From Pinibacter soli (lineage in GTDB: Bacteria > Bacteroidota > Bacteroidia > Chitinophagales > Chitinophagaceae), in assembly GCF_029961145.1 (NCBI RefSeq), contig NZ_JASBRG010000005.1, positions 248,001 to 312,000 of the forward strand: a stretch of 64,000 bases of DNA. The letters are read 5' to 3'. Of this stretch, positions 2,968 to 38,285 are shown one piece after another. The notes beneath the pieces were generated by a model. That model had not been told where the DNA came from, ran no database searches, and was given only the letters and a program-made list of their open reading frames with translations. The translations under genes were made by a program, and so were the position numbers. Each line of letters opens with the position of its first letter. The stretch's first letter is position 1.

Positions 2968-3031
2968 GCAATCTACTATTGCCATTCAGCGTGTTTAACT
3001 TCAATTTGCGAAAAAAAAAAGTCATTTTGCG
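2968..3031 (-). promoter_or_regulatory. XylR-type direct-repeat operator and -7 box upstream of the first GH92 gene
   Basis: On the minus strand the half-site CGCAAAATGAC (3031-3021) is followed by ten T and then CGCAAATTGAA (3010-3000), 21 bp start to start. A Bacteroidota-like -7 box TAGATTGC lies at 2975-2968. The same arrangement precedes SusC, the sugar porter and the PhyH-like gene. The predicted leader to the ATG at 2761 is about 200 nt, longer than at the other sites. Confidence 0.75.
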
Positions 3032-3151
3032 CTCAGCAGATAAAACATCTATATAAAATCAGTTTTCTAATTTTGCGTACAACCAGATTATCTGTGCCAT
3101 ACTCGTCATCACAACCAAGGCAAGCGCGTTTGATCCTTGCCCTTCCAATTT

Positions 3152-3520
3152 TCAGTGGGCTACCAGGCGCTCAATAAAATACCGTAGTAGCAAAAATACA
3201 TAGGTAGCTATCATGAGGTACAAGAACCATTTCAAGCATACGTTATAATAATCTTTCACGTTATGTTCGGGGAAAAACAAGTATCGTTTCTCTTGCTTAA
3301 TTTCCTTAGGTTGTTCCGCAATCAATCTTTTTATTTCCTCTGCGTGTCGGTCAATTAACGCTTCAGTTGACCGGAGATTAGCCGGAGCAAGATCTGTTTG
3401 AAAATTTTCAAAATTATTCGCAAGCCTGTTATTTAAGTCATTTAACGAACCAACCATTTTTGCCAGATCGACCATCTCATGATTGGCTTCTTTTTGCTCT
3501 GCCAACACTATTGATGTCAT
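3152..3520 (-). CDS. small hypothetical protein with coiled-coil and C-terminal membrane segment
   Basis: About 122 residues, starting MTSIVLAEQKEAN. The first 75 or so residues are charged and helical (coiled-coil-like). A short element KRYLFFPEHNVKDYYN follows, then one hydrophobic segment (WFLYLMIATYVFLLL) at the C-terminus. I recall a similar FPE-plus-tail-anchor layout in small proteins of Bacteroidota mobile elements, but cannot confirm homology here. An ATG at 3541 would extend the protein by seven residues encoded by operator sequence, so I prefer 3520; ATGs at 3475 or 3457 are also possible. The operator at 3516-3547 overlaps this start. No partner gene is adjacent on the same strand, and function is unknown. 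Confidence 0.55.
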   Translation of the reverse strand: MTSIVLAEQKEANHEMVDLAKMVGSLNDLNNRLANNFENFQTDLAPANLRSTEALIDRHAEEIKRLIAEQPKEIKQEKRYLFFPEHNVKDYYNVCLKWFLYLMIATYVFLLLRYFIERLVAH

Positions 3521-3547
3521 TTTGCGTAAAAAAACAATCATTTTGCG
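3516..3547 (-). promoter_or_regulatory. fifth copy of the 21-bp direct-repeat operator, without a -7 box
   Basis: The minus strand carries CGCAAAATGAT (3547-3537) and CGCAAAATGAC (3526-3516), again 21 bp apart with a T-rich spacer. Unlike the other four sites, no TAnnTTGC lies 35-36 bp downstream, and the site covers the likely start codon of the small membrane protein. It may act as a repressor or roadblock site, or the gene may start further downstream. Confidence 0.6.
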
Positions 3548-6381: not shown

Positions 6382-6384
6382 ATT

Positions 6385-7257: not shown

Positions 7258-9804
7258 TTAATTCTTTGTATTTATCGATGTGCTTGCCATCGTCAGTCCC
7301 TCTCCTCTCGCAGTCACTTTAATTGTTCCTGTTTGTCCTTTCTTAGCTTTAACAATTACCAATGCCATGCCATTATAGACAGGTCGTTCGTGGCTTTGAA
7401 ATGAAACAAAACTTGTAGCATCTCCGTTGTCGGTGGCCACAATTTCTCCCGGCCCTTCTATATCGAATGTAACCATTGGATGAGAGCGCGGCACCATCAG
7501 TCCTTCTGCATCCTGAACTTTTAACGTGATAAATGCCAGGTCAGAACCATCATTTTTAATTTGTTTGCGATCTGGTTGAAGAGCCAGCTTTGCTGCAGCT
7601 CCGGTAGTTTTCACAATATCTGTCGCCCACTGCTTTCCGCCCTTATAACAAATCACTTTGAGTTCGCCCGGTACATATTTTACATCGTCCCACATGAGAC
7701 GAAAATCATTGCCTTCAGTTTTCTTCTTTCTTCCAAGGCTTTTACCATTTAAGAACAATTCTGCTTCATCACCTGAGGTGTACACGTTTACCGGCACAAT
7801 GGAATCTATTCTTTCCTCCCAGTTCCAATGAGGGAAAATATGTGCAACCGGCAAAGATGGGCGCCAGTGCGACTGATAACTATAGAAACGATCTTTTGGA
7901 AAACCCGCTAAATCTATAATACCAAAATAGCTGCTTCTGGAAGGTGGCCGGCTTTTGCGGATCTTTTCCAGTTCGGCTTCAAGTTCTGCTTTCTTCGAAG
8001 AATCTGTCCGGAAATTCAAGAGATTGGTTTCATCTGAATTATAGGGCGTAGGCTCGCCAAGGTAGTCAAAACCTGTCCACACAAATTCGCCCAGTAAGTG
8101 AGGAAACTTTGCATTCGTTCTGAATTGCTGGTCGGGTGAACATCCCCAACCGGGCTTTGCCTGATCATAAGAAGATATTTGCCAGTTTTGATAATCGTTA
8201 CCAAAATAGTACTCGCCACGGGAGCTGACACAAGAAGATGTTTCACTACCAATTGTTGGCTTGTTGGCATAACGAGGATCAGCATCCCAAACCGGTTGCT
8301 GATTGAAGAAATAATTCACACCCATAATGTCAAGAGCCACTGCAGCGCCGGACCTGCGACCACCGTCAGGATCGTTGTAGCCATTGGAAACAGGTCTTGT
8401 TGGATCGGTATTATGAACAATATCCACGAGGTGTTTGGTAAGTTCAACGTTCTGTTGCTCCATTACTTCGTTGCCAATGGACCAGATAAATACGGAGGGA
8501 TGGTTACGATCGCGACGAACAAGAGCAGTAAGATCTTTCTCATGCCATTCGTCAAAGAGTTTATTGTAATCGTTTTTACGTTTCCCTTTTTTCCATGCAT
8601 CAAATGCTTCATCCCAAACAAGAAAGCCCATTTTATCTGCCAGCTCTAACAATTCAGGAGCAGGTGGATTGTGTGATGTACGCAGTGCATTACAACCCAT
8701 ATCTTTTAACATAACCAACTGCCTGATCAAAGCACTCAAATTGAATGCTGCGCCGAGGGCTCCGAGATCATGATGGTTACAGGTTCCCTGCACTTCTACT
8801 CTTTTACCGTTGAGCAAGAAACCGTTGCGGGCCGTAAATTCCAGCGTTCTGATCCCAAATGGTGTTGTATAAGTATCCACAGTTTTGCCGGCAACACTTA
8901 CCGTGGTGATGGCAACATATCGCTGAGGTTTTTCCAGGCTCCATCTTTTAGGGTTTGGTACAATTAACTGCGACGCTATGTCCTTTTGATTGCCTGCACT
9001 TAAAGTAATGTTTGTTGGCGAAGAAGCCACAACCATTGTCTTATAGCGATTGAAGGAATCCAGTTCATACACAACAGTGCGCACACTTGCCTGTTGTTGC
9101 TTTTGAGACTCGTTAGCAACTGTCACCGCTATGTCAACCTTTGCTTTCTGGTCGCTGACTTCCGGCGTAGTGATATAAGTGCCCCAATGTGCAACGTGTA
9201 CGTAATCGGTTTTCACGAGCCATACATGACGATATATGCCTGCACCCGGGTACCAGCGTGAATCCCAGCTTTCAGTATCCAGTCTCACGGCGAGCACATT
9301 TTCTTTACCGGGCAACAAATAAGGTGTAAGATCCATACGGAACGAAGTGTATCCATATGGCCACGTGCCGATATAATGCCCGTTCAGCCAAATTTTGGCG
9401 TATGCCATTGCTCCATCAAAATCTATAAAAACTTTTTTGCCGGCGTCAGTAGCAGGCACAGTAAAATGTTTCCTGTACCATCCAATTCCTTTCCACGGAA
9501 GTTTTCCCGTTGAGCCTTCCAGTTCAATACGGAACGGCCCGGAGATGGCCCAGTCGTGCGGAAGATCTACTTTCTGCCAACCCGCGTCATTGTATGAAAC
9601 GGATTCGAGTCCGGTTGGCTCATCCTTTTTGGTACCATCAGCCTGCATTCCATAACGTGAGAACTGCCAGGCGTCATCAAACAAAGTGAAATTTGCAGCA
9701 CCCATTCTATCAATGGGCTTCTGTGCAATCACGGTGTTGATGCCACATAAAAAATTGATAAAAAAAGCAACGAACAACGAAATGGTAAAAAAACGGCATT
9801 TCAT
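7258..9804 (-). CDS. GH2 family glycoside hydrolase (beta-galactosidase type), secreted
   Basis: About 848 residues from the ATG at 9804, which gives the signal peptide MKCRFFTISLFVAFFINFLCG. A longer start at 9876 has an AGAGG stretch upstream and would add 24 residues. Domain order: jelly-roll sugar-binding domain, immunoglobulin-like domain, TIM barrel, then C-terminal beta domains resembling DUF4982 and a bacterial Ig-like domain. Barrel motifs are NHHDLG, RTSHNPP and WSIGNE; the last holds the acid/base Glu (residue 446 from 9804), and GSETSS probably holds the nucleophile (residue 521). GH2 covers beta-galactosidase, beta-glucuronidase and beta-mannosidase activities; this C-terminal layout is common in Bacteroidota beta-galactosidase-like proteins. 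It lies downstream of a GH92 gene on the same strand, 280 bp away. Confidence 0.9.
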   Translation of the reverse strand: MKCRFFTISLFVAFFINFLCGINTVIAQKPIDRMGAANFTLFDDAWQFSRYGMQADGTKKDEPTGLESVSYNDAGWQKVDLPHDWAISGPFRIELEGSTGKLPWKGIGWYRKHFTVPATDAGKKVFIDFDGAMAYAKIWLNGHYIGTWPYGYTSFRMDLTPYLLPGKENVLAVRLDTESWDSRWYPGAGIYRHVWLVKTDYVHVAHWGTYITTPEVSDQKAKVDIAVTVANESQKQQQASVRTVVYELDSFNRYKTMVVASSPTNITLSAGNQKDIASQLIVPNPKRWSLEKPQRYVAITTVSVAGKTVDTYTTPFGIRTLEFTARNGFLLNGKRVEVQGTCNHHDLGALGAAFNLSALIRQLVMLKDMGCNALRTSHNPPAPELLELADKMGFLVWDEAFDAWKKGKRKNDYNKLFDEWHEKDLTALVRRDRNHPSVFIWSIGNEVMEQQNVELTKHLVDIVHNTDPTRPVSNGYNDPDGGRRSGAAVALDIMGVNYFFNQQPVWDADPRYANKPTIGSETSSCVSSRGEYYFGNDYQNWQISSYDQAKPGWGCSPDQQFRTNAKFPHLLGEFVWTGFDYLGEPTPYNSDETNLLNFRTDSSKKAELEAELEKIRKSRPPSRSSYFGIIDLAGFPKDRFYSYQSHWRPSLPVAHIFPHWNWEERIDSIVPVNVYTSGDEAELFLNGKSLGRKKKTEGNDFRLMWDDVKYVPGELKVICYKGGKQWATDIVKTTGAAAKLALQPDRKQIKNDGSDLAFITLKVQDAEGLMVPRSHPMVTFDIEGPGEIVATDNGDATSFVSFQSHERPVYNGMALVIVKAKKGQTGTIKVTARGEGLTMASTSINTKN

Positions 9805-10083
9805 AACAATCGATAAATTTTCATGCAATTTAATTCTAATCTGGCGGAGATTATTGTTGATATATACCGTTGTCATATGACCTCTATCGGGTCTTCAATA
9901 GCTCCTATTCATTCGGGTAACGGTTCTGCCATTGCCTTACACTGCTTTTCTCGTTTTCACCTTATCACTATCCTGCATTATTTTGCCAGTATCCTATATT
10001 AAAATGATCCGTTCAGACCATCAATTAATCTTAATTAATTCTCTTAATACTTCCCGTTGGTGCTAATGTTTATTGTTGTTCAA

Positions 10084-13000
10084 TCACTGACCAGACTGCA
10101 TATTCAATTCCAGTTTTCCACCTTTAAGCACATCCTGTTGAGGTACCCTGAAATCATTCAAAGGTTTTCCGTTTAGCGAAGCAGAGGTGATGTATTTGTT
10201 TTCTTTGGACGCTCCGTTTGCTTCTATTACGAACTGCTTTCCACGGCCATACCTGCCATCAAGATTGATGGTGATTTTTGGATATCTCGGACTACCCAGT
10301 TCATACACTGGTTGTTGAGCGCAACCGCCGTCCATTTGAAATAATCCAATAGCGCTCATTACAAACCAGCTGCTCATTTGTCCCAAATCTTCATCGCCGG
10401 GATACCCATCGTACGGCGTTATGCCATAGTATTGTTCCTGAATGGCCCTTGCCCATTTTTGGGTCAGCTGCGGTTTGCCCGCCCAATTGAACAGATACGC
10501 AACCTCCATGCATGGCTCATTTCCATGATTGATCGGATAGTTTGCAAAATCGTCTCCCTGCGCATTAAAGTTTGCAAATGATGATTTGAACATTGCACTG
10601 TCGAGCCTCGACACAAATCGATCTTTGCCCACAGCAGCAATTAATCCCGTGGGATCCTGCGGCACAAACCAGCCATAGTTGAAAGCATTGCCTTCTATAA
10701 ATCCAGGTGTATGGTAGGGATCAAACGGTGTGATCCAATCACCTTTCTCATTTTTTGGACGGATAAATCCAGTGGTGGTATCCATTAAATTCTTCCAACT
10801 CTCCGAGCGTTTTTGAAAGAATAAATAATCATCCCGTTTTCCCAGAGAAAGCGCCATTTGTGCCAAACAATAATCATCATATGCATACTCCATCGTGTTG
10901 GATACAGCGCCCATTCCACGCGGCACATAACCATAGCGTTGATACGGAACAATGTTCTCCACTCCCACTGTACCTCCACCGGCAAATTTCTGCGGTGGCG
11001 TGGTCATCATTTTTTTTAAGCCTTCATAAGCCAGTGGTAAATCAAAGTCGTGTATTCCGCTTTGCCACGCTCCCTGAATTTGCGATACCATATGCATGGC
11101 GACCATAACCCCTGTGTGTTCTATACCGGCGGGATCGGTATTGAACCATCCTGAATTTTTATATAAGGCAATAGCCGATCTTGCCCACTTTGAAGATATT
11201 TCCGGCGCTACTAAATTGAAAAGTTGCTGGTTGTTCCAGAATGTGTTCCAGTATTCACCGCTAACAATGCAATCATCTTTCCCCGAAAGTTTTTGCACCA
11301 CTTCGCTTTCATCTCTGAAGCGTCCGTCAGCATCGCTCCATATGGCTTTCGCAGCAAGTGCACGATATAAATTTGTATAAAACTTTACTTTCTGAAGATA
11401 ATCATCCGTTTGTATTTGAACTCTACCAAGGTATTCGTTCCACACTTTCTTCTGCATCTGAACCACTCCATCAAAGTCAAAATTAAAAGGCTTCGTAATT
11501 TCAGTTTCGAGGTTGTTTCTTGCGCCTTTTACATCTACGAGTGAAACGCCCGTGCGTACAATGATTTGCTCGTCCTTCTTTGTTTTATAATTCAGAAAAA
11601 TGCCTGCATCTCCCTTACCGCCAATTTCATGAACATTCTCAAATATCTCCGGTGACGAATCAAACTCGTGGTTCATTTTCCATTCCGGAATATATCCTTT
11701 TACCGGCGCTACGTTGCTGTTAACCCAACCACCCATCGATGCGAAGGGCTTGCTCACCTGTATAACAAAATAAACGGTGTAGGATTGTTCTAATGTATAT
11801 CCCGTAAACGCGTTGTAGTAAGTTGCATAGCCTTCTATCTCTGTGTTGCTAACCTTCGTGATCTTAGTATCTACAAGGTTGTGCGGATACTCGTTTGGCG
11901 TAAACATGTCAACCAAAATGCGGGCACTGTCGCTTGATGGAAATGTGTATCGCTGAATGGAGGCCCTTCTCGCAGCTGAAATTTCTGCTTTGATATGGGT
12001 ATCGGTCATGTACACACTATATCTGCCAACTTTTGCATTCTCCGTTTTTTTGTCTATGCGTGAACGATAGCCTTCATCAGGATGATCTTCTCTGCCCGGG
12101 TTTACCTGCAGTTTTCCGGTGGTGGGCATCATTAGCAAGCCACACATCGTCCAGTCAGAAAAATGACTAAAGCCCATAATATTGTCAACCGTGTATTCAT
12201 ACCCGGCCTTCCATGTTTGATCCTGGTTGTCGGGCGCAATCTGCACCATGCTTAGCGGCAATGAGGGCCCGGGTTTAAACATCCACCTTGAATTGCCTGT
12301 TCCGATCAACAAATCAACATAATCGGCGTCCTGATGCAAAGGCTGCGATGAACGTGTAATCTGTCCCTCGTACACCACATCATTGCCTGACCTTATCACC
12401 ACATGGCTGTTTATTTTTTTCCCTGAAGACGCAGTTGCCGGCATGTCTATTTCGAGAACGCTGTGACCGCTTTCGATTTTCTTAGTAACAGGTTTCAACC
12501 CTTCAATCTCAATGTTTAACTCTCCTCCGGAATTCAATTGATAAATATCCACGAGCAATGGTTGGATACGTTTATTCGAAACGCTGTACTCAAATGGAGC
12601 TGCTTGTGCAGATGCAATCAGCGAGCTGTATGAAGGAGCAACTTTGAGCGGCTTATCCGATCGCAATTGCATGTAGTCAAATACCAACCACGAGCCGGAT
12701 ACACTTCCTATCTGAACTATATTAATTCCTTTTTTCAACCAGCTACCCGGCACATCTACAACTACAAGTTGTGCTTTCCCAATTGCCGCAGCATCAGTCA
12801 ATGAAGCACCTGTTCCCGCATCTAGCTGTTGCGTTGTGCGATGGCCATTTATGTCAATTTGAATAACAGGCGCATTCTTTTTATTAGCATCACCAATGGC
12901 AATAACAAACTTGAACTTTCCATCAGCAGGCTGTTGAGGTAATTGAAAGAATATCCTTGGAAAATGTCTTGGATAAAAGCCGGCCCAGTAGCCTCCGCCG

Positions 13001-13239: not shown

Positions 13240-13823
13240 ATGGTTGCGCAAAATTTATTATTGTAGCCTATATCGAAATGTGATTTAAGCAAGAATAAGT
13301 GTTTGGACTTTACTTTCCAAAAAGTGTTTTCAAAATCCTGGAAGGCATCAACTTACGAATTGCGATGTCTGGTGTTTGAGTTACGCTTATACCTATCAGT
13401 TAGTTGTGATTCACCTGAAAGATTATTAATCATAACTAACTCTCGGAACTTATTAATTTTTCAGAGAATTTCTTTTTCTGCAGTTTCCTCACGGATACTT
13501 CTTTTGAATGAGATAGCTTCGCCCGTTTCTTTTTTGTTTATTTTACTTATTATAATTCACCATTCATTTTCCACAGGGCTCGCAATGACGTGCCACTCTC
13601 GAATTCTGCTGTAACAGGTTGATGGCTTAAGTTCAAAATGGTAGCGCCGTCATTGCGAGACCCTGCGGAGAGTAGAATTGTAAAAGGAAACATTCCCAAA
13701 ATGAAAGGAATGGGTCGAAGCAATCTCGCCTAAGGAAATTATTCTTAAGGAAACGACATTAATACATAAATTGTATTCTATAAGGCAGCATTATTAATGG
13801 CAACAGATTTTACTCCATGATAA
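13240..13823. other. intergenic region without a convincing gene
   Basis: It contains open frames of up to about 100 codons, but they have no recognisable motif and run through low-complexity AT-rich sequence. The main structure is the inverted repeat at 13574-13665. The promoter of the second GH92 gene must lie at the left end. Confidence 0.6.
13574..13665. repeat. inverted repeat of the intergenic palindrome type
   Basis: CAGGGCTCGCAATGACG (13574-13590) is matched by CGTCATTGCGAGACCCTG (13648-13665), complementary over 17 bp with one extra A. The 57-bp loop carries no gene. A further GCAATCTCGCC follows at about 13721. The motif resembles dispersed extragenic palindromes found in many bacterial genomes. 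Confidence 0.7.
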
Positions 13824-26673: not shown

Positions 26674-26687
26674 AATGAGGTTGTTAA

Positions 26688-28640
26688 TTATTTGCCGCTT
26701 GCCGGCTTTATATTCAGATAATCTTTCTCTAATCCTGCATTGTTCATGATCTTTTGAGCTGCCGACGGCCAATTGCCATTAGAAACAAGTGTAGCATTTG
26801 TCATGCTCGTATTGATGCCCTTGTTTACATTATTTAATGTGGTAGTATAATTGTTATTGATATTGATATCGTGAATAGTGCTTATCCAGATATGCGCATA
26901 CCTTGGTGTGTTGTTTATCACGTTATCGGTTAGATCAAACCAACTGCTTCCTTCATCGGCATACAAAGCACCAAACTGGTTGTTTACATTCTGAATATAG
27001 TTGTTAGAAATGCGCCCTTTGTTTGTGGCTGAGCCATTGGTTGGCCCCAGTGTATAGATCGCTCCGCCATCTCTTAATACAGACATGACATCGTGAATAT
27101 AGTTATACTGAATATTCGTTCGTTGGGAAACGGAAGTCGCGAACCTGTCCCATCCCCATCCAATATGAATCCCTGAATAGGGTATATTGCCAATTTCGTT
27201 ATGCACGATATCCATATCCACCGGCAGCGTTGCTGCTATGGCTGTTGAAGAAAAATACTCAACGCCAATCTTGTTGAAGTAACTGTTGTACACATCGTTG
27301 TTGCGAAGCCATACGAGACTGTCGGCATTCAGTATATAGTTTTCTGTTCCGGCAGTAAACATCCCTTTGTAATCACCTATCTGGATGCCATTGCCCGAGA
27401 TATCTGTGAATACGCAACCTACCACGAGGTTATCCTGTGAACCACTGTACATGTTGAGTGCATTACCTCCCAGGTGTTCGAATACCACTCTTTCAAATTT
27501 GATAGCTCTTGCATATGTAAGATTGACAGCAGCATTGATGATACTCTCGCCCTGGTCATCTCTTATCACGTTGTTTTGAGCATCGGGCAATCCGCGATTT
27601 CCATTCACTCTTAAATATGTAGCATGAGAGAACGTAAGTCCTCTGAATTGAATGTTGCTGACTTTATTACCTGCATCTGCTCCCTGGATCCTTACCAATT
27701 CTTCTAGTACAGGCACCACAACAGAAGCGGCAGCAAGGTTTTCGCCGGTTCGAGGTTTGTAGTAGATGAAACCTGTTGTTCTGTCAAGATACCATTCACC
27801 TTCTTCATCCAACAGTTCATAAGCATTTTCAATAAACCATGGAAGCCCTTTGGCGTTGTGGTTTCCGCCAACAGAAGTTCCCCCTTTATTGGTTACAAAT
27901 CCCCAACCGGGTTGCTTCATGCTAATGGTGGTGATGCTATCGTTACGGGTAATGGTGCCAACTCCTATCCTCGGTGCTGTCCATTCGTTTTTAAATACAA
28001 ATTCAATATCACTTTGGTTTTTCCATTGCTGCATTGGAATGGAAGAGTTGGCAAAAACATCAGCCTTAGCTGTGTAGCCAAATGCTTTAACGAAAGTTAA
28101 AGGAGAGGGCGCAACAGTACTTCTGGCACGGGTTGCGCGGACGCCGTTGACAAACAATTGTCTTGTTTCGAGTCCCTTGCCAGTGTATGCTCTATAAATG
28201 TTTTTTGTTGTATCATATAGATTCCAGCCAGTAATTTCCTTGCCTCCACTGATGACAGGCTTTTCATTTTTATAAGCTGCATAAATAATATTGAAGCCAC
28301 CGGTGCCCGAGTCGGTTGTATCAAAAAGCAAAGTGGACTTCAACCAATAAGTGCCGCCTCTCAGATAGACATGTATGTCGCCTTTCATATTTGCATGCAT
28401 AGTGCGTACCACGTCACGGGCTTTTTCAATCGTCCGAAATGCTTTTGCCGCACTGGTTCCATCGTAAGTAATATCATTTCCTTTAACAGGATCTACATAA
28501 TAATTGATCGGTTTGCCGGCCATTGCAACCAGACCAGTTAATACTACCAACAATACAATAAAACATAGCTTCCGCAAATGAGAAAAAGTGGTTTTATAGT
28601 TGGATGATTTATCAGTGCTTCGATTAATTCTTAAAATCAT
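26688..28640 (-). CDS. GH141-like right-handed parallel beta-helix glycosidase
   Basis: About 650 residues. The ATG at 28640 is preferred, with another at 28670; the export signal LCFIVLLVVLTGLVAMAG follows. It opens NYYVDPVKGNDITYDGTSAAKAF and RTIEKARDVVR, then VYLRGGTYWL, KPVISGGKEITGW and RQLFVNGVRATRARS. This order is characteristic of GH141-type beta-helix proteins, whose known members are alpha-L-fucosidases of rhamnogalacturonan II breakdown and xylanases. The second half is parallel beta-helix repeats with many NN turns (NNYIQNVNN, NNYTTTLNN). It lies between a GH92 gene and another glycosidase in the PUL. The fold is firm; the activity is inferred. Confidence 0.72.
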   Translation of the reverse strand: MILRINRSTDKSSNYKTTFSHLRKLCFIVLLVVLTGLVAMAGKPINYYVDPVKGNDITYDGTSAAKAFRTIEKARDVVRTMHANMKGDIHVYLRGGTYWLKSTLLFDTTDSGTGGFNIIYAAYKNEKPVISGGKEITGWNLYDTTKNIYRAYTGKGLETRQLFVNGVRATRARSTVAPSPLTFVKAFGYTAKADVFANSSIPMQQWKNQSDIEFVFKNEWTAPRIGVGTITRNDSITTISMKQPGWGFVTNKGGTSVGGNHNAKGLPWFIENAYELLDEEGEWYLDRTTGFIYYKPRTGENLAAASVVVPVLEELVRIQGADAGNKVSNIQFRGLTFSHATYLRVNGNRGLPDAQNNVIRDDQGESIINAAVNLTYARAIKFERVVFEHLGGNALNMYSGSQDNLVVGCVFTDISGNGIQIGDYKGMFTAGTENYILNADSLVWLRNNDVYNSYFNKIGVEYFSSTAIAATLPVDMDIVHNEIGNIPYSGIHIGWGWDRFATSVSQRTNIQYNYIHDVMSVLRDGGAIYTLGPTNGSATNKGRISNNYIQNVNNQFGALYADEGSSWFDLTDNVINNTPRYAHIWISTIHDININNNYTTTLNNVNKGINTSMTNATLVSNGNWPSAAQKIMNNAGLEKDYLNIKPASGK

Positions 28641-28742
28641 TATTAGTTTGTTGTAATAATTATATTTCATTTGAAACGAACTGCCCGTTAACAAATACAA
28701 TTAGTTAACGGATAGTAACAGACGAAATTCAATTCATGTTAT

Positions 28743-31091
28743 CTAATTGACCGCTTGCAAACGCTGCCCCCACTCTTTGTTCGGCGTTGGCCCCAGGTCA
28801 ATCTTCATTGAGCCTCCACTCGCAAATGTGCTAAACGGCAATTCAAAACTTTTCCATGATTTTCCATTCAGTGTCGCCGATTGAATGTAGGTGTTGTCTT
28901 TCCCTGCAGGTGCTGATGTCTGAATCACAAATGTTTTTTTGCCTGGCAAATGAAAGGTGATCTTATCAAAAATGGGTGACGTAATTTCCAGCGTTGGATT
29001 TACATCGGCGAGACCTTGTACATCAAACAGCCCAACTGACATCAAAGCGCTCAAGGCACCCATTTGTCCCTGGTCTTCATCGCCTCTGTACCCTGCATAA
29101 TTCGTGGTATCACCAAAAGTATTTTCTTTCACCTGGCGAACCCAATACTGTGTGAGCCATGGCGCACCCGCGTAGCTAAATAAGTGCGCAAGCTGACAGC
29201 CGGGCTCATTATCGTAATCAACACGTGCAGCATAATGCTCGCCATGTTCTGCTGCAAAGCCCGAACCAACTGCACTTTCAAAATCAGCATTCAATCTTTT
29301 TATAAATGTTTCATTACCTCCCATGGCATTTATTAATCCCCTCACATCTTGTGGCACATAATAACTGTAGATGGATGCATTCGATTCAATGAAGCCCGGT
29401 GTGGCATGATTGACGCCTCTTTTTGTTCCTATGGCTTCGAATGGAGTCAGCCATTTGCCCAAAGTATCTTTAGGCCTTGTGTATCCTGTTGATGAATCGA
29501 AAATATTTTTCCAGTATCCTGCTCTTTGCAAAAATTCAGGGCAATATTTCTTTTTATTCAAGACAGATGCCATGTTGGCTATGCACCAATCCTGGTATGC
29601 ATACTCAAGAGTCATAGAAGCACCACCCCTGTTGTATCCATCGCCTCTGTCTCTAATTTCAATGGGCACATAACCATATTTGAGATACCAGTCTATGCCG
29701 CCGCCTTTGGGAGATTGACCTGCTTCATAACCACCCCTGTCTCTTGTTCCTCCGGGAAATGCATTTTTGTAAGCACCTTTAAAAGCATCTTCTGTATTAA
29801 ATGTTGCACGATGTGTTTGAATCAATGCGGCCATCAAGGGTACTGTCTGATCGCCCACCATCACCCAACACTCTTGTCCTCCCCAGGATGTGCGACCCAT
29901 AATACCGGTGTTGTAGTAATAGTCAAGAAAAGTGGTGGCAACATCATTTCCAGCTTCAGGATATACCATTGACCACAAAATATTTAGGTTCCAATGGCTT
30001 CCCCACAATCCATCTGCATCGAGAAAATGATAGGATGGTTTACCGTTTGCCGTGAGTGGAACTTTTCTCACCACCGGCTGAGGCCCGCTATTGTCAGTAT
30101 ACTCGCCATTCACATCTTCGGTTAATCTGCGGCCAATCGCTGTATGCATCAAATCTGTATAAAACTTCACCTGTTGTTTTCTCGTTCCTCCGCTTACTTC
30201 GATTCTTCCCAGGTAGTCGTTCCATGCGGCTTTTGCTCTTGCTACCGCTGCATCAAAATTCCAATCTGGCATTTCCTTTTCAAGATTCATCCTTGCATTT
30301 TCTATGCTTACAAATGATACTCCCACTTGCAGCATTATTTGTTCTCCTTCGTGAAGGTTGTAATAGCTTGCATACAAGCCAGCTTTCTTATCGTCAGTAA
30401 CATCTCCGTTAACTAGTTCCTTCGTAGAATCGGAAGCAGACTTCCAGAAGTTGATCTTATCAAATGACTTGCTGAATCTTGCTACAAAATAAATGGTGCA
30501 GTTTTTCTTTCTCCTGAAAGTGGGTGCATTTACGGAGTAGCCCTCTATCTCATTGCTACTTACTTTTTTTGCATATCCTTTCACCATATTTACAGGACCA
30601 AGCGCCGCGGTCAGGTCCATAATGATGTGCGCTTCTTTTGCAGCAGGAAAAGTATAGCGATGAAAACCCACACGCTGCGAAGCAGTTAATTCTGCAGTTA
30701 TGCCATAGTCCGGCAAAAATATTTTATGATATCCGGCTTTCGCTATTTCTGTTGTATGGTCGAGTTTAGCACGAGAGGCTTCCAACCCCTGCAATGCTTT
30801 ACAGGAACCGGTTACAGGCATTACCGGAATGCCGGCTGTTTGGGCATTATGAATGTGACTGAAGTTGAGAATGTAAGGATCGTTGTATCGATAACCTGCG
30901 TTCCACAAATCACCATGATGTGTATCCGGACTTAAAGCTATCATGCCATAAGGTAGTGATGCTGCTGCAAAAAAATCAAACCGTGGCTTTGTTGTAGCTA
31001 CGAGAGGATTCGCGAGATCGGCAGGTTGCTGGCTGTATGTTTTTGCAAACATGAAAAAAGATAACACACAAAAAACAGTTCGCATTTTCAT
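28743..31091 (-). CDS. GH92 family exo-alpha-mannosidase (third GH92 gene)
   Basis: 782 residues, close to the plain GH92 length, with signal peptide MKMRTVFCVLSFFMFAKTYS. The catalytic domain starts almost at once (ANPLVATT, FAAASLPYGMIALSPDT, ILNFSHIHNAQTAGIPVMP), and the GDEDQGQMGA stretch is near residue 670. The C-terminal beta domain holds IQSATLNGKSW. GH92 members are Ca2+-dependent exo-alpha-mannosidases. It lacks the extra N-terminal modules of the other two GH92 proteins here. Its place within the PUL, after SusCD and a TIM-barrel glycosidase, makes it the core alpha-mannosidase of the locus. It has no operator of its own and is probably read from the SusC promoter. Confidence 0.93.
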   Translation of the reverse strand: MKMRTVFCVLSFFMFAKTYSQQPADLANPLVATTKPRFDFFAAASLPYGMIALSPDTHHGDLWNAGYRYNDPYILNFSHIHNAQTAGIPVMPVTGSCKALQGLEASRAKLDHTTEIAKAGYHKIFLPDYGITAELTASQRVGFHRYTFPAAKEAHIIMDLTAALGPVNMVKGYAKKVSSNEIEGYSVNAPTFRRKKNCTIYFVARFSKSFDKINFWKSASDSTKELVNGDVTDDKKAGLYASYYNLHEGEQIMLQVGVSFVSIENARMNLEKEMPDWNFDAAVARAKAAWNDYLGRIEVSGGTRKQQVKFYTDLMHTAIGRRLTEDVNGEYTDNSGPQPVVRKVPLTANGKPSYHFLDADGLWGSHWNLNILWSMVYPEAGNDVATTFLDYYYNTGIMGRTSWGGQECWVMVGDQTVPLMAALIQTHRATFNTEDAFKGAYKNAFPGGTRDRGGYEAGQSPKGGGIDWYLKYGYVPIEIRDRGDGYNRGGASMTLEYAYQDWCIANMASVLNKKKYCPEFLQRAGYWKNIFDSSTGYTRPKDTLGKWLTPFEAIGTKRGVNHATPGFIESNASIYSYYVPQDVRGLINAMGGNETFIKRLNADFESAVGSGFAAEHGEHYAARVDYDNEPGCQLAHLFSYAGAPWLTQYWVRQVKENTFGDTTNYAGYRGDEDQGQMGALSALMSVGLFDVQGLADVNPTLEITSPIFDKITFHLPGKKTFVIQTSAPAGKDNTYIQSATLNGKSWKSFELPFSTFASGGSMKIDLGPTPNKEWGQRLQAVN

Positions 31092-31135: not shown

Positions 31136-32926
31136 TTATTTTTTTACTGACGCTTTCGCATCCGGGTTTTCGCTGTTGACCAACTTTCTATACTTGTCAA
31201 CTGAAGCGCCCATGCCTTTTTTTAAATGATATTCCGGCCCGATGTACACAAAAGCATAAGGCTTGTACAAGGTAGCACAGGAAGGATTTTCGTTCTTCAA
31301 ATTCTGATACGCTTTCCAATAACGATCATAATTTTCTATTGACGTTTTTATCTTAGCCTTATTGTAAACGCCTGTTTTATCTCCCTCAAATCCTAGCGCC
31401 ATAATGTTCCATCCTTCCGCGATTATCTTATGTAACAACAGTCCGTATTGGCTGGATACTTTGACATAGGCCTGGTCTGCTTTGTCGCGCATATCTATAT
31501 TGCGGCTTAAGGCTTCAATCTTTTCCCACATAGCCGCGGCTTCAAATTTTTCGGCAACTGCCTTTTGCAATACGCCTTGCTTATAGTATTTGGAAAATGC
31601 ACTATACAACATTCCCTCAGAGGCATATGAAGGACTTTCCGGAATGGAATCTACTCCGGCAAGAAACTCGTCTCTCATCCAGAATGACCAATCCTTTTCG
31701 AATGGCAGCGCACTACTGAAATGTCCTCTCAATACTGCTTTTGCTGAAAGCAAACAAAGTTCTCTGAACCCTTTGCGTGAAGCACCGGCAATTCCATTTT
31801 CATCCATAAAATGATTGAAAACTTCTTCCTCTGTTTGCGTCGTATTCGCGGCCCAATGAGCAATTACGTATGCATTGAGTTTGCACCAGAATTCGTTGCC
31901 GATATAAGGCCCTACCCATCCGCCACCGCGACTCCAGCTCCATACGCCTTTGAAGTTGGGACTGTTCTTTATATCGTTCAGCGACTTATAACCTTTCTGT
32001 GGTGAATTGGTTTCATATTCTTCAAATCCATTGATCACGCCGTTCATTACGTAATTGGGGTACGCCCCTTTTCCTTCGTACTCGCGTTGGCACTGCACTT
32101 CAATAATTTGAGGATGGTTGCCCAGCGTTAAGGTAGGATTAAACCCAACTGTTCTCAGGTAATCACCTTGTGTATGTTTAATAGAAAATATGAGTTGTGG
32201 ATGCGGAGTTATGCTGTTGACCACTTTTAAATAATAGTCGGGAGATTCGTGCATACCTCCGAAAGACCATGTACGATAAAATATAGTTTTGTTTCTTTTT
32301 ACACACACTTCGTCGCGCAACAGATTAATTAGTTTGATATGGCTTTGCTCGCCATTGGTAATGGGATTATTACCTGTATGATAAGGTATATTGTTTAAGT
32401 AGGTTTCACCTGTGCGAATAACCAATCCATCCAGGTCGGGAAAAGTTTCAAACAACTCTTCCAACATTATTTTGTGTATTTCTAATGTGCGGGGACGCTC
32501 AAAGGATATGCGACCGAGGCTGTCGCAAATTTCACTGCGATACAATTCTACGAGTTTTTTAGGCAGTACAATAACGTCGGTAAAATAGTATGCTTTGATT
32601 CCTGCAGCATGTGCTGCTTTAATATTTTTTCTTACGGTCTCTGCCGCGTTCATTACCCACTGCCATTCTTTGGAACCTTCCGGAAAGATAGCGGGATTTA
32701 ATTTTTTAAAAGTAATAGCAGCGTGTGCAAATACAAAATCGTTGAAAACCTGGCCTGTGTAGCCTTGATCTTTCAATGTTTTCGAATCGTTAAAAACTGA
32801 TTGGGTTAATGGTTCGCCGGGGTTATTGTGAACCATGTCCAGAATATAGCGCCCATCTTTATTTTGCGAATGAGCATGTAGTGAAAAAATACAAAGGCTG
32901 AAGAATAAAAGAAGACGGGTGTTCAT
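31136..32926 (-). CDS. putative secreted TIM-barrel glycoside hydrolase (GH67-like, unclassified)
   Basis: About 596 residues from the ATG at 32926 (MNTRLLLFFSLCIFSLHAHSQ), a signal peptide. The mature part begins as a TIM barrel (GRYILDMVHNNPGEP, AAHAAGIKAYYFTDVI, DLDGLVIRTGETY, FYRTWSFGGMH, LIFSIKHTQGDY, IIEVQCQREYEGKGAYPN). The spacing of Glu in RTGETY and QREYEG recalls alpha-glucuronidase-type (GH67) barrels, but the N-terminal GH67 domain is missing. The C-terminal third is helical. Family assignment is uncertain. It is the first enzyme gene after SusCD, separated from SusD by a strong hairpin. Confidence 0.6.
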   Translation of the reverse strand: MNTRLLLFFSLCIFSLHAHSQNKDGRYILDMVHNNPGEPLTQSVFNDSKTLKDQGYTGQVFNDFVFAHAAITFKKLNPAIFPEGSKEWQWVMNAAETVRKNIKAAHAAGIKAYYFTDVIVLPKKLVELYRSEICDSLGRISFERPRTLEIHKIMLEELFETFPDLDGLVIRTGETYLNNIPYHTGNNPITNGEQSHIKLINLLRDEVCVKRNKTIFYRTWSFGGMHESPDYYLKVVNSITPHPQLIFSIKHTQGDYLRTVGFNPTLTLGNHPQIIEVQCQREYEGKGAYPNYVMNGVINGFEEYETNSPQKGYKSLNDIKNSPNFKGVWSWSRGGGWVGPYIGNEFWCKLNAYVIAHWAANTTQTEEEVFNHFMDENGIAGASRKGFRELCLLSAKAVLRGHFSSALPFEKDWSFWMRDEFLAGVDSIPESPSYASEGMLYSAFSKYYKQGVLQKAVAEKFEAAAMWEKIEALSRNIDMRDKADQAYVKVSSQYGLLLHKIIAEGWNIMALGFEGDKTGVYNKAKIKTSIENYDRYWKAYQNLKNENPSCATLYKPYAFVYIGPEYHLKKGMGASVDKYRKLVNSENPDAKASVKK

Positions 32927-33054
32927 ATTGGCTATTATTTTCTCTCGTTGATAATTTACAAAAGGTCGAAACATTTCTACTAGGTCCGGGCTACTATTTG
33001 TGATTACTGGCGAAGTTAAGTTGAGGGAGAAATTAAACAATGGTCAAATAAACA

Positions 33055-33126: not shown

Positions 33127-34941
33127 TTATGGAGTCGCCCATCCTGGATTCTGCACCAGCTTCTTGTTGCGCGAAAGGTCATCCATCGGAAGCGGAGAGA
33201 GATAATCTCTGCCTGCATTGAATGTGTATCCGGCAGGTAAAGTAGCCTGATACGGATCAACATAGCCATTAGCATCCACTTTTACGCTGGGCTTAGTAGT
33301 ATATGGAGCATAGTCAGCCATAACAAGTTTAAAACCTCTCGGACGGCTGCCATTAAATAGTGCATGTGCTCTCCATCTTTTCCAGTCACCACTTCTGAAA
33401 CCTTCACCGGCTAATTCAACCCTGCGTTCTTGTCTCACAATCGCCAAAGCATCTGGTATGGCATAGCCATAATTAGGCCAGTTTGCTGTTACCGTAGGTT
33501 TCACACTTGTTAAGGTAGGCATGCCCACACGTTGACGAAGTACATCAATATTGTCAGAAAGATCGGGGTAGTTTCCATTCAATTCAACATACGCTTCCGC
33601 ATAGTTAAGCATTAACTCAGGCAGTCTGAAAGAAATACCTGCAATCTCAGGATCAATATAGTTGCCTGATAATGTAGAACTAGGGTTATGTGCTTTCTTT
33701 GGTGCAAATCCGGTTATGGTATTATTGCCTATAGTAGGGTTATGCATCTGAGGCACTCTGAACGTGGAGTCCTTATAACCTAAAGTATTATTATTGAGCA
33801 AATCACCCGGTATAAATACAGACTGTTTGAATCTAGGGTCAAGAAGGCCTGCCATTTGAGTTAAAGATGCAGCACCCTTTGTAGTGATTACATTTACAGT
33901 ATCTGTAATATCGATGTATGTTCCATCTTTTTTCAGGTAGCTCTTTACCATATCCAAAGAGTATGAACATCCGCCATAACCATATAACCATACAATATAA
34001 CCTACCTGGTTGGTTACATTCAGTGCCTGCGAATAGTTCTTGCTCAAGGTAACTTCGGGGATAGTTTTATAATCAAACTGACCAAACAAATTGTAATAAG
34101 CCGTTTGTGTTCCACCGGTAGAATATAAGTTAGCCGTGGTTATAGTGCCAAACAATGTTTTATACTGGGTGAATGCGTCTATAGCTTTTTGGAATAACTT
34201 ATTGGCATTTACGCTTGAAGCCGAAGGTGTTCCGGCGTGGTATTTAGCCCAGGTTGCTTCAAACAATGCCACACGTGATTTATAGATAAGCGCTGTTTCT
34301 TTATTGAGCCTGTTTACGCCAGTTGTTGCTCTTACGTTCAGATACTTGATTGAGCTATCGAGGAGATTCATAATGGAATCTACCACCATGCTTCTCGGAT
34401 CTCTGGCTTTATACAATTGTACAGAATCTGAAGGCGATAGTACATGTGAATACCAAGGCACATCACCAAACGCTGCCACCAGGCCCTCATACCTTAATGC
34501 TTTCAAAAAGCAGGCTTCTCCAAATGTCTGTTGATACTGTGCAAATGGTGCAGGGCATTTTTGATAGTTATCGAAAAACGTATTGATTTGTCGTATAGCT
34601 GTAAAGCCGGACACCCATGCTCCCCCTGTAGGAGGAGTAACGGAATTTTGGCCATTCATAAACGCGTTATAATTTGTGGCAAAAACCATATTGTCCGAGA
34701 CCTGGTCATCTGTATAGTAGCCCATCCCTGATGAAGATAGTTGTCCCGGTAACCAATCATATAGGCCTACAATATAGGCATCCAGTTCCTGAGGAGTTTT
34801 CCAAAATTCAGGTGTAGATATCTGGTCCAGTGGAACATTATTCAAAAACTTCTTACAGGAACCCAGCGAACCGATTAAGAAGACAGAAGCCCCCCAGATG
34901 AGGGATCTTCTGATATATTTTTTTATCAATTTATTATTCAT
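33127..34941 (-). CDS. SusD/RagB family nutrient-binding outer membrane lipoprotein (first PUL)
   Basis: 604 residues. Lipoprotein signal MNNKLIKKYIRRSLIWGASV... with lipobox GSLGSC (Cys near residue 29). SusD-like features: N-terminal CKKFLNNVPLDQIS, the TPR-rich middle (EACFLKALRYEGLVAAFGDVPWY), and the C-terminal RQERRVELAGEGFRSGDWKRW with a final SPLPMDDLSRNKKLVQNPGW. The protein caps the SusC barrel on the cell surface and binds the glycan. It starts 20 bp after the SusC stop codon, so the pair is co-transcribed from the operator-bearing SusC promoter. Confidence 0.95.
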   Translation of the reverse strand: MNNKLIKKYIRRSLIWGASVFLIGSLGSCKKFLNNVPLDQISTPEFWKTPQELDAYIVGLYDWLPGQLSSSGMGYYTDDQVSDNMVFATNYNAFMNGQNSVTPPTGGAWVSGFTAIRQINTFFDNYQKCPAPFAQYQQTFGEACFLKALRYEGLVAAFGDVPWYSHVLSPSDSVQLYKARDPRSMVVDSIMNLLDSSIKYLNVRATTGVNRLNKETALIYKSRVALFEATWAKYHAGTPSASSVNANKLFQKAIDAFTQYKTLFGTITTANLYSTGGTQTAYYNLFGQFDYKTIPEVTLSKNYSQALNVTNQVGYIVWLYGYGGCSYSLDMVKSYLKKDGTYIDITDTVNVITTKGAASLTQMAGLLDPRFKQSVFIPGDLLNNNTLGYKDSTFRVPQMHNPTIGNNTITGFAPKKAHNPSSTLSGNYIDPEIAGISFRLPELMLNYAEAYVELNGNYPDLSDNIDVLRQRVGMPTLTSVKPTVTANWPNYGYAIPDALAIVRQERRVELAGEGFRSGDWKRWRAHALFNGSRPRGFKLVMADYAPYTTKPSVKVDANGYVDPYQATLPAGYTFNAGRDYLSPLPMDDLSRNKKLVQNPGWATP

Positions 34942-34961
34942 GATTTATTTTAATTTATTTA

Positions 34962-37900
34962 TTAAAACCCAAGGTTTACACCAAATGAGTATGTTGCCTG
35001 CTCCGGATACATCTGACCTCCATTCACGAACTCAGGATCGATGTAATTAGGCAGCTTCGACAACACTGCGATGTTCTCTGCCGAGAAATAAAAGCGACAA
35101 GTCTGAACCTTCACATGGGTTAACCACTGATTTGGTAAGGTATAGGTTGCCATTACGTTTTTCAAGCGCACATAGGCACCACTAACCATATACCTGGTAT
35201 TGGTTTGGAAGTTTTTGGCACCTTGGCCACTTGAATTGTACGGCCTTGGGAAATAAGCGTCTACATTTTGGCCTAACAGGGCAAGAAGTCTTGGGTTGCT
35301 ATTGGCATCTCTATAATAGTCCAATTGTTTTCCTTGATATATACCTGTTCCAATCGAACTACCGGTGTACATATTTCCCCAATAAAAGTAACTGCTTCCC
35401 ATAAACAAGTCTTGCTTGCCTACACCTTGAAGGAATACAGAAACATCTAAACGGCCAGCTTTCGGCAAACTATAACCTGTTCCGAAATTGAAACCGAATC
35501 GGTAACGAGGAGTACTGTTTCCAATCTTGCGAAGGTCGCCATGGCTTCCAACGGTTGAAGCACCCGGAGAGATTAACTTGTCTCCATCGAGGTCCTCATA
35601 CTTCACGTCACCGGAAAACCATTGGGCATTTATTTTACTCTGACTAATGTTTGGTTGTTGTGCTGTGATTTTAGTAGGATCAGGAAAATCATTTTGGTTC
35701 AGCAAACGATTAGAAGTGTATCCCCAGATCTCACCAAATTGTTTGCCCACATACCATCCGCTAAGCAGGGGATCACCTGTAACATTGTACTTGGTTACAT
35801 GCGACATCGCATCCGACAAGCTAAGTCCAACATTGTAGTCCCAATTTTTGTTGATATGATCGTGCCAGTTCATCTGCAATTCCCAACCTTTGGTAACAAA
35901 CTCAGCATTGTTTACAGGCGGAGCAACATCACCCAATACACTTGGTACAGGGGTAGCCGGCCCGATATTGTCCCACGACAACCTGTTAAAATAATCAAAC
36001 TCGGTACTTAAGCGGTTATTTAAGAAACCTAATTCCAGGCCAAAGTCAGCCGTGGTAAATTTCTCCCAGGTACGGTCCATATTCAATATGCCAGGCATAT
36101 TAACATAAGGCAAACGTGCACCATTGAATATCCATGGTGACTGGGCAAATCCTTGCATAGTAGATATATGCGGATATCCTGACTGAGCCTGGTTACCTAC
36201 AGTACCATAAGATGCTCTTAATTTCGCACGATTAACTATTGGTTCTATGGATTTCCAAAACTTTTCGCTACTTATATTCCAACCTGCAGATGCCGAAGGG
36301 AAGAAACCCCAGCGCTTATCGGCTGCATAACGGCCGGAACCATCGTATCGTCCGTTTACCTCAAGCAGGTATTTATTGTCGTAATTGTAGTTAAACCTTC
36401 CAAATACACCTACAACCGTTCCATCACTTATTGCATCAGTAAGTGATGGAGCTGTTCCATACGCTGTAGCGATAGAAGTCATATCGGGAACGTAAAGATT
36501 CAAGTTAGAACCGGACAAGGTTTTCGCTTTGGTCTCTTCAGCCTGGCTACCAGCCTGAATTCTGAAATTATGTTTTCCCAGGCTATGTTCATAAGCGGCA
36601 TATGCCTGTAAGGTCCAGTACGTACCTAAAGCAGTTGATTTAGCGATTGAAGACACATCCGTAAATTGAACCAGGTTCAGCGCTCCGTTAGGTGCTATTT
36701 CATAAACAGGTTTCCGGAGCGTCTGGTTATCGTTCAAAGCCACACGATAAGTACCATCAGCATGTACCGTCAATCCTTTCGCAAGATTAAGATCCAGTCC
36801 TAATATATTATCCAGAAGATGTCCTGTATTATTAGAATTACCCCCTTCCATTGCCGGAAGAATCTGCGATAGAGCGCTATATTGTCCCGTAGTATTTTTT
36901 ACCGGAATGGTTGGCCATCCGCCATAAGCAAATTGATAGAACCTGTTTCTATCGTTATTCACTCCTGTTGGAGCTAATGTATTGGCCAGTGAATAACGCG
37001 TACGATAGCTCAACTTTATCCAGTCATTTACCTGTGTAACTAATCCGGCATTGAGATTAACACGTTTATACTTGTCTATATCTTGTATAAAATTAAAAAC
37101 CCCCGGTTGGTTCACATAAGCGAGAGAAAAAAAGTAACTAGTCTTATCACTTCCTCCTTTTACAGATATCTCATGCTGCTGGCGAAACGACTTCTTGAAC
37201 AATATATCAAACCAATCATTGTTATTAGCTGTCACTGCGGCACTACTCCATGCAAGGCCATTGTTAGGATTCAATTGTGCAAGGGTATATTTTCCCGGAT
37301 TATTTACATTATCCTGAATCAAATCCAAAGTGGCTGTTGAGAAAAAGTCAGCAGCTCCGCTATTTGCCTGCGCCTGATTTCTGGAGAGCGCAAAAGTATA
37401 TGAGTCTACAGTGTGAGGCGTTCTCACATTTTCAACATTTGCAAAGTTCCCATTGTACGTAAAGGAAGGCTTTTCATTTTTCTTACCCATTTTAGTAGTA
37501 ACCACTAACACACCGAAAGCAGCTTTGGCGCCATATATAGCAGACGATGCAGCATCCTTCAATACAGATATGCTTTCGATAGCATTTGGATTCAGCAAGT
37601 TAAGGTCACCCACACCTGCAGGAATACCATCAATGACCACCAATGGAGGAGTGGTTCCACCTAAAAGAGCTTGACCTCTGATCTGCATGGTGGGACTTGA
37701 GCCAGGGGTGTTGCCACCTGCCGGCGTGCTGAATACGATACTGGGAGCCGTACCTTGTAATAGAGCGCTCGTGCTTGTTACAGGACGGTTTTCCAATTGT
37801 TTGGCGCTGATCGTTTCAATCGCACCTGTCATGTTGATTTTCTTTTGAGTACCATAGCCCACTACAACTACGTCATCGAGGCTTTTGTCGGCAAGCGTCA

Positions 37901-38192
37901 ATTGTGTGCTAATGCTCGACTGTGATGTACCGACTTTAATTTCTTTACTGGAGTAACCGGTGAAAGACAAAATCAGTGTTGCGTTTTTGTCAACGGCGAT
38001 TGAGTAATTACCCGTTTCATCCGTAGTACTGCCGGTTTTGGTTCCTTTGACCATCACGTTTACCCCTTTTAAAGGCTGACCGTTCTGATCTTTTACCGTA
38101 CCGGTAATGGTTCGGGTCTGGGCCATGGCAGCAGCGCCCAGAAGGAGTGTTAGTGAGAATGCCAATAGGCATTTTTTGGCTTGTAGCTTCAT
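34962..38192 (-). CDS. SusC/RagA family TonB-linked outer membrane protein (first PUL)
   Basis: About 1076 residues from the ATG at 38192 (MKLQAKKCLLAFSLTLLLGAAAMAQ, signal peptide). It begins with a CarboxypepD_reg-like domain (ITGTVKDQNGQPLKGVNVMVKGTKTG), followed by the TonB-box/plug region (VVVGYGTQKKINMTGAIE, VVIDGIPAGVGD, IESISVLKDAASSAIYGAKAAFGVLVV) and the beta-barrel ending SFGVNLGF with the terminal Phe. It imports oligosaccharides with the SusD partner, powered by TonB-ExbBD. No STN domain is present, so control is not through FecR. The promoter carries the direct-repeat operator (38223-38285), consistent with regulation by the XylR-like protein. Confidence 0.96.
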   Translation of the reverse strand: MKLQAKKCLLAFSLTLLLGAAAMAQTRTITGTVKDQNGQPLKGVNVMVKGTKTGSTTDETGNYSIAVDKNATLILSFTGYSSKEIKVGTSQSSISTQLTLADKSLDDVVVVGYGTQKKINMTGAIETISAKQLENRPVTSTSALLQGTAPSIVFSTPAGGNTPGSSPTMQIRGQALLGGTTPPLVVIDGIPAGVGDLNLLNPNAIESISVLKDAASSAIYGAKAAFGVLVVTTKMGKKNEKPSFTYNGNFANVENVRTPHTVDSYTFALSRNQAQANSGAADFFSTATLDLIQDNVNNPGKYTLAQLNPNNGLAWSSAAVTANNNDWFDILFKKSFRQQHEISVKGGSDKTSYFFSLAYVNQPGVFNFIQDIDKYKRVNLNAGLVTQVNDWIKLSYRTRYSLANTLAPTGVNNDRNRFYQFAYGGWPTIPVKNTTGQYSALSQILPAMEGGNSNNTGHLLDNILGLDLNLAKGLTVHADGTYRVALNDNQTLRKPVYEIAPNGALNLVQFTDVSSIAKSTALGTYWTLQAYAAYEHSLGKHNFRIQAGSQAEETKAKTLSGSNLNLYVPDMTSIATAYGTAPSLTDAISDGTVVGVFGRFNYNYDNKYLLEVNGRYDGSGRYAADKRWGFFPSASAGWNISSEKFWKSIEPIVNRAKLRASYGTVGNQAQSGYPHISTMQGFAQSPWIFNGARLPYVNMPGILNMDRTWEKFTTADFGLELGFLNNRLSTEFDYFNRLSWDNIGPATPVPSVLGDVAPPVNNAEFVTKGWELQMNWHDHINKNWDYNVGLSLSDAMSHVTKYNVTGDPLLSGWYVGKQFGEIWGYTSNRLLNQNDFPDPTKITAQQPNISQSKINAQWFSGDVKYEDLDGDKLISPGASTVGSHGDLRKIGNSTPRYRFGFNFGTGYSLPKAGRLDVSVFLQGVGKQDLFMGSSYFYWGNMYTGSSIGTGIYQGKQLDYYRDANSNPRLLALLGQNVDAYFPRPYNSSGQGAKNFQTNTRYMVSGAYVRLKNVMATYTLPNQWLTHVKVQTCRFYFSAENIAVLSKLPNYIDPEFVNGGQMYPEQATYSFGVNLGF

Positions 38193-38222
38193 CGTTAGTT
38201 TAGTTTTAATCGAAGAATGGCA

Positions 38223-38285
38223 GCAAAATAGTGCAAAATGATGGGGGGACTTTAGCGGTTTGCGAAAAAAAAACGTCATTTTACG
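38223..38285 (-). promoter_or_regulatory. XylR-type direct-repeat operator and -7 box upstream of SusC
   Basis: Minus strand: CGTAAAATGAC (38285-38275), T-rich spacer, CGCAAACCGCT (38264-38254), 21 bp apart. The -7 box TATTTTGC is at 38230-38223, placing the transcription start about 25 nt before the SusC ATG. The proximal half-site would overlap the -33 region, as in class II activation. Confidence 0.8.

Follow-up and report, generated by a model that had tools for sequence, protein, structure and literature searches.

AraC-type control of polysaccharide utilization loci (PULs) through direct repeats spaced near 21 bp is already known from the hybrid two-component systems (HTCS) of Bacteroides; in B. 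thetaiotaomicron the direct repeats that they recognise lie 21 bp apart on average (PMC3878776). Vibrio XylRA also binds two direct repeats, acts at several promoters of one catabolic locus, responds to xylose and, like E. coli XylR, is described as an activator (PMC12125979); the XylR of PMC3878776 is an NrtR-family protein. A further AraC-family protein, CgrA of Zobellia galactanivorans, is a positive PUL regulator with a susC/susD pair elsewhere and a carrageenan regulon (PMC5698469). Here we describe a 64,000-nucleotide stretch of the Pinibacter soli genome (the window; contig NZ_JASBRG010000005.1, positions 248,001 to 312,000), in which five direct-repeat sites are very probably operators of a XylR-type one-component regulator (22086–23261), most likely an activator, and four of them stand just upstream of the predicted promoters of a divided PUL. 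To our knowledge, most PUL regulators outside gut Bacteroides have no known operators, and regulator, operator, promoter position and regulon are all readable here from the sequence. Among the matches listed in the open-access literature we found no report of a LacI/AraC-type XylR over SusC/SusD. The apparent novelty is therefore the one-component version with a LacI-like sensor and an AraC-type output, for which a predicted regulon can be mapped, together with a site grammar that seems to extend to regulators of 28–35% identity.

The sites follow the pattern CGCAAAnTGA-N11-CGCAAAnTGA. At up to three mismatches the window contains five matches, all on the minus strand and where the first-pass annotation had placed five 21-bp direct repeats, and 100 dinucleotide shuffles of the window searched with the same tolerance gave a mean of 0.10 matches and a maximum of 1. 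Operators 1 (3001–3031), 2 (3517–3547), 3 (21978–22008) and 4 (24475–24505) have no mismatches and operator 5 (38255–38285) has three. The eight exact CGCAAAnTGA words on the two strands of the window all fall within the four exact pairs. Four of the operators precede genes named in that annotation: a first glycoside hydrolase family 92 (GH92) gene (operator 1), a sugar porter (operator 3), a PhyH-like gene followed by the XylR-type regulator (PhyH-XylR, operator 4) and SusC (operator 5). Operator 2 is an orphan.

The first-pass annotation had named many sites at unrelated genes as one of the results that would speak against a single regulon. At the tolerances tried, no T-tract site occurs outside the window in its own genome (G000, 5.9 Mb). 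When the T-tract between the half-sites was made part of the pattern and three mismatches were allowed, the genome had five matches, which are the five of the window (reversed control, 1); a more degenerate pattern with up to two mismatches returned the same five sites, again with one in the reversed control. When the spacer was left free, 26 matches with up to three mismatches were found versus 10 for the reversed control, so the mismatched matches without a T-tract are mostly background. We dismissed as such the 21 of these 26 that lie outside the window sites. The free-spacer pattern has five exact matches, the four window pairs and one on contig C7. We rejected the latter, which lies in a coding frame (9306–9740 of locus L034) of a prophage-like region and lacks both the T-tract and the −7 box. 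In this frame the codons for HFAQIRNQFAHN happen to reproduce the operator pattern exactly; the peptide looks like a HEPN-type motif.

Behind operators 1, 3, 4 and 5 stands a minus-strand −7 box at a nearly constant distance: TAGATTGC (2968–2975, 25 bp after the operator), TAACTTGC (21946–21953, 24 bp), TAAATTGC (24442–24449, 25 bp) and TATTTTGC (38223–38230, 24 bp). All four fit TAnnTTGC, the box that had been proposed behind four of the five sites. The spacing recurs in a set of 24 sites from five genomes (genome G375, treated separately below, is outside this set), where TAnnTT lies 24 or 25 bp past the operator in 22 sites and TA in 23, and where each of the remaining offsets (0 to 59) shows TAnnTT in two sites at most. 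The exceptions are operator 2, with neither TAnnTT nor TA, and a site of genome G002 (TAGTATTG). The −7 box of Flavobacterium is reported at −12 to −5 (PMC9723704); if the same holds here, the operator would cover roughly −67 to −37. The window's boxes, all four, are closer to the TAnnTTGY of the SM5 class of Flavobacterium psychrophilum than to the sigma-A consensus TAnnTTTG of the same source (PMC9723704). The likeness has limits, however, as the SM5 genes named there concern lipopolysaccharide, amino-acid scavenging and gliding, and seven of the eight boxes at the distant loci described below read TAnnTTT.

The regulator, also on the minus strand, is a 391-amino-acid protein with a LacI-like sensor (Pfam Peripla_BP_3, 103.7 bits) followed by an AraC-type DNA-binding domain (HTH_18, 60.1 bits). 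It resembles E. coli XylR (4fe7) in domain order and over its full length (residues 12–388, E 7.6e-38), so the earlier assignment as a XylR-like AraC protein holds, and like regulators of this type it has tandem direct half-sites upstream of its presumed target promoters. HTCS share the AraC-type DNA binding, the repeat spacing and the PUL targets, but those regulators are hybrid kinases that sense in the periplasm and carry histidine kinase and receiver domains, whereas this one-component protein has the Peripla_BP_3 and AraC-type domains only. The operator also differs from the AT-rich repeats described for XylR and XylRA (PMC12125979) in being CGCA-based, and the targets differ in being SusC/SusD and GH92 genes of a Chitinophagaceae genome. 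Directly behind the sites of this genome there is no gene for xylose isomerase or xylulokinase (xylA/xylB), and the TIM-barrel protein encoded nearby is merely isomerase-like; we therefore do not file the regulator as XylR proper. The likeness to CgrA is at the level of the AraC family, and the main text of PMC5698469 mentions no conserved motif, direct repeat or palindrome.

Sites and regulator occur together across the family. The regulator is present at E<=1e-70 in four of 294 family genomes (G000, G001, G002 and G056), and sites with no or one mismatch occur in exactly these four. Up to three mismatches in the T-tract pattern made seven of the 294 genomes positive, with 5 sites in G000, 4 in G001, 12 in G002, 1 in G056 and one each in G208, G284 and G140. 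We dismissed the last three as background, since each is a single weak match (two mismatches and inside a gene in G208, three mismatches in G284 and G140). The own genome has a single regulator match at E<=1e-60. A second search of 394 genomes, with the best four candidates per genome scored, found regulators of at least 64% identity in five (the four above and G375), the next 12 genomes following at 29–35% (28–34% by BLAST). Nine regulator loci, five of them close, came from a separate collection, which adds Chitinophaga eiseniae Ak56 (58% identity). Against plasmid records, 14 records match, all below 60% identity and with 31% as the best among the matches listed. The DNA-binding domain is conserved more than the sensor in all five regulator pairs compared.

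All eight close copies of the regulator (at least 58% identity: its own, two each in G001 and G002, and those of G056, C. eiseniae and G375) are adjoined by sites, at the regulator itself or its operon, upstream of PhyH-XylR and/or of the next gene. For example, PhyH-XylR has a site in front of it in G056, C. eiseniae and G375 and, in G001 and G002, at the regulator copy of 66% identity, and the sugar porter gene is likewise preceded by a site in G001, G002 and C. eiseniae. The C. eiseniae cluster runs PhyH-XylR-porter-PhyH-isomerase-like-GH120, with sites before the first PhyH gene (three mismatches) and the porter (one mismatch). Related SusC genes of G001, G002 and G375 follow a site with two mismatches to the T-tract pattern. 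Furthermore, G375 was held out and found through the regulator protein alone, and it carries four sites with two to four mismatches, three of them with TAnnTTGC at 24–25 bp.

A relaxed form of the same grammar reaches more distant regulators. The twelve loci of the 394-genome search with regulators of 28–35% identity (every such locus) have no CGCAAAnTGA-type operator, the one match having six mismatches (L139). However, the pattern CGCA-N17-CGCA-N30/31-TAnnTT gives 8 matches in six of them. Other half-site periods from 12 to 33 gave no match, except one at 16, and other box offsets from 0 to 59 none, except two at 1. CGCA ranks first of the 256 four-base cores, with 8 matches against 3 for the next best; shuffles of two-base blocks gave a mean of 0.04 and a maximum of 1, and no grammar match occurred in ten control stretches totalling 160 kb, among them L035, in which a G002 regulator gene begins. 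Judging from open frames read by eye, the site at L134 stands in front of SusC and also, on the opposite strand, of a ROK-type kinase that the regulator follows, while those at L135, L138 and L139 precede a ROK-type kinase, a deacetylase-like gene and a transporter resembling the major facilitator superfamily (MFS), respectively. The first recognition-helix region (SRRxLE) is nearly constant in the regulators and the second differs between the close and distant groups, a pattern that might explain a constant CGCA with a variable remainder. XylR-type regulators lie within 1.3 kb of SusC-like genes at seven of the twelve loci. The first-pass annotation had called a PUL run by such a regulator from a clear operator unusual; this stands in part, but not against these neighbourhoods nor against the 21-bp average that HTCS direct repeats show as a rule (PMC3878776).

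The sequences themselves show the sites, the constant distance from site to box and the co-occurrence of sites and regulator. Together with the sites at all close copies, the held-out genome and the relaxed grammar at half of the distant homologues in the family, these features support the earlier proposal of one regulon assigned to the XylR-type protein, with the limit that operator 2 is an orphan lacking a promoter. Binding, activation, the direction of the response and the operon limits are what we infer in the following scheme. The LacI-like domain would sense a sugar in the cytoplasm, and the AraC-type domains would bind the two direct half-sites, two helical turns apart on one face of the DNA. 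From an operator at about −67 to −37, the promoter-proximal subunit could contact RNA polymerase and so activate transcription from the TAnnTTGC box. At araI1-I2, too, an activator occupies direct half-sites just upstream of a promoter. The regulon would comprise SusC-SusD and the four next genes (for GH92, a GH141-like protein and two unassigned proteins); PhyH together with the regulator, which would give positive feedback; the sugar porter, perhaps along with the isomerase-like protein; and another GH92, placed behind a duplicate of the PhyH promoter.

Several observations weigh against this scheme. Operator 2 (3517–3547) has no −7 box, and a search for its promoter found none; TAnnTT is also missing from its usual offset at the G002 site noted above and at one site of G375, where TA is lacking as well. 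G208, G284 and G140 carry their weak sites (two to three mismatches) without a regulator at E<=1e-70, in a protein search of the 294 genomes that scored the best six candidates per genome. Three of the four co-occurring genomes belong to one genus, so there are fewer independent events, and four of the six distant loci with the relaxed grammar are likewise from one genus. This grammar is absent from the other six of the twelve distant loci and from all nine XylR-type loci outside the family.

The sites might instead be bound by another AraC-type regulator, such as an HTCS encoded elsewhere, with the XylR-type gene merely among the targets. The direct repeats of the B. thetaiotaomicron HTCS, with their 21-bp average (PMC3878776), would fit this. 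So would two-component-like genes some kilobases from one G002 site and near the C. eiseniae cluster (read from the sequence in the latter). Yet family genomes carry many HTCS, and of the 294 only the four with the regulator have sites with no or one mismatch. The CGCA grammar is seen at half of the family's distant XylR homologues, which were identified from the protein alone, and a Pfam scan of 28 window proteins revealed no two-component regulator. We consider a different regulator improbable.

A XylR-type repressor, released by its sugar, is about as unlikely. In its favour, repressors are numerous among LacI-type proteins, which the sensor resembles. However, the operator ends 24–25 bp upstream of the −7 box rather than covering the start, and E. 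coli XylR and the xylose-responsive XylRA of Vibrio are described as activators (PMC12125979). That the repeats are remnants of duplicated DNA or of a mobile element without regulatory meaning is hardly credible: sites 1 and 4 do have about 100 bp of promoter in common and a truncated gene follows site 2, but outside the operator just this one of the ten operator pairs beats all 500 shuffles, and six genomes keep both the half-site spacing and the distance to the −7 box.

Returning to the XylR-type activator and its predicted regulon, the genes concerned all lie on the minus strand. The operon behind operator 5 has the SusC/SusD pair and glycoside hydrolases that define a PUL, in the order SusC-like TonB receptor (34962–38192), SusD-like protein (33127–34941; PF07980, 4.2e-37), a protein without a Pfam or NCBIfam match (31136–33040), GH92 (28743–31091; PF07971, 1e-123), a GH141-like beta-helix protein (26688–28700; PF21231, 5.4e-14) and a second protein without a match (24607–26772), the last gene of the operon. 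For SusC, the ATG at 38192 suits the promoter and is the better start because the longer open frame, with its mechanical start at 38279, begins inside operator 5. The first of the two unassigned proteins is kept in the SusC operon of both sister species, G001 and G002 (91–92%), and the second is 86–91% identical there. The two products are conserved and exported-looking, and are candidates for unassigned glycoside hydrolases.

The PhyH-like dioxygenase (23400–24383; PF05721, 6.1e-32) is probably the first gene of the regulator operon; if PhyH and XylR are co-transcribed, operator 4 implies autoregulation. PhyH-like dioxygenases of two kinds accompany the regulon (that of the window and one at 18664–19536 of L040), and their substrate is possibly a modified sugar. 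The porter behind operator 3 (20468–21877) is an MFS protein that scores best with XylE (407.6 bits), which is under the XylE cut-off of 608 and above the cut-off of the sugar-porter family. The xylose-isomerase-like TIM-barrel protein (19317–20120; PF01261, E 3.9e-7, just below the gathering score) possibly shares its operon. The TIM-barrel gene comes after the porter in G375 and also in C. eiseniae, there with one gene between. As for the ligand, our guess is a xylose-related sugar, from the porter's likeness to XylE, from the isomerase-like protein and from the GH120 genes of related clusters. The GH120 genes and the porter's XylE score hint at xylose-containing glycans, and the GH92 and GH38-like genes hint at mannose.

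The regulon appears to have persisted through rearrangement. G001 and G002 each have a recognisable SusC operon, its four enzyme or unassigned genes 86–94% identical and its SusC/SusD 63–76%, on a different contig from the 88% regulator (C17 versus C8 in G001, C1 versus C4 in G002); contig C1 of G002 carries a 66% regulator copy too, about 200 kb from the operon. Relocated in both sister species, the operon yet retains its site. Related genes lie together in G375, in a single cluster of about 30 kb that carries the four sites. A physically broken-up PUL could thus stay a single regulon.

Operator 2 may record one such event. It abuts a 129-amino-acid open frame on the minus strand (3152–3541) whose apparent start codon falls within operator 2; the gene, which looks N-truncated, begins a few bases downstream. 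Homologues occur in G002 (66%), elsewhere in the own genome (59%), in G029 and weakly in G004 (four of the 59 genomes searched matching, own included), and they differ at the N-terminus over about a dozen residues (junction placed by eye). This suggests a mobile or repeated gene, and we read operator 2 as probably severed by a rearrangement from the promoter it once served. In line with this reading, the window's first 20 kb correspond to several places that lie apart in the sister genomes, as fits a breakpoint-rich region. In its own right, the segment 3152–3547 holds a small membrane-protein-like gene with an altered N-terminus next to an orphan operator.

The regulon may also have grown by promoter copying. 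About 100 bp downstream of operators 1 and 4 are homologous (none of 500 shuffles reached the score) and the DNA upstream of the two is not; the other nine operator pairs do not beat all 500 shuffles outside the operator. The GH92 gene behind operator 1 (8–2812) has no match above 38% identity in either sister genome, versus 66–74% in G375. Because of the shared 100 bp and this distribution, it was probably in this genome that the gene entered the regulon, behind a copied PhyH promoter, which illustrates how a gene may be recruited.

G002 has sites before two operons for an extracytoplasmic function (ECF) sigma factor, FecR and SusC (L079, 4254–6094, and L080, 13890–14900; Pfam, the second sigma by region 4 only), with two divergent sites in one of the regions. 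The G002 site noted above for its poor −7 box is among these ECF sites. Other G002 sites precede a GH38-like gene and a LytTR-type gene. A regulator above the ECF sigma/FecR/SusC operons would form a possible regulatory cascade, in which a cytosolic sugar signal would gate cell-surface signalling systems; such control suggests a layered regulation of glycan foraging. A tentative extension, which we consider possible but short of probable, is a class of one-component XylR-type PUL activators in the Chitinophagaceae with a shared grammar of CGCA half-sites at 21-bp spacing, set 24–25 bp ahead of the −7 box, which keep scattered PUL pieces together after rearrangement, gain targets by promoter duplication and, in one species, stand above ECF sigma/FecR/SusC operons. 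As the grammar extends to some regulators of about 30% identity, sites could be predictable for other family members.

The window has two further features. GH2 and GH92 genes at 7258–13251 have no site of up to three mismatches before them and share 84–89% DNA identity with genes about 1–11 kb from the second (66%) regulator operon in G001 and G002. Between the parts of the PUL, at 15902–18936, a Schlafen-group-3 helicase gene adjoins an Mrr-type restriction gene (Pfam), and the two are a possible defence pair.

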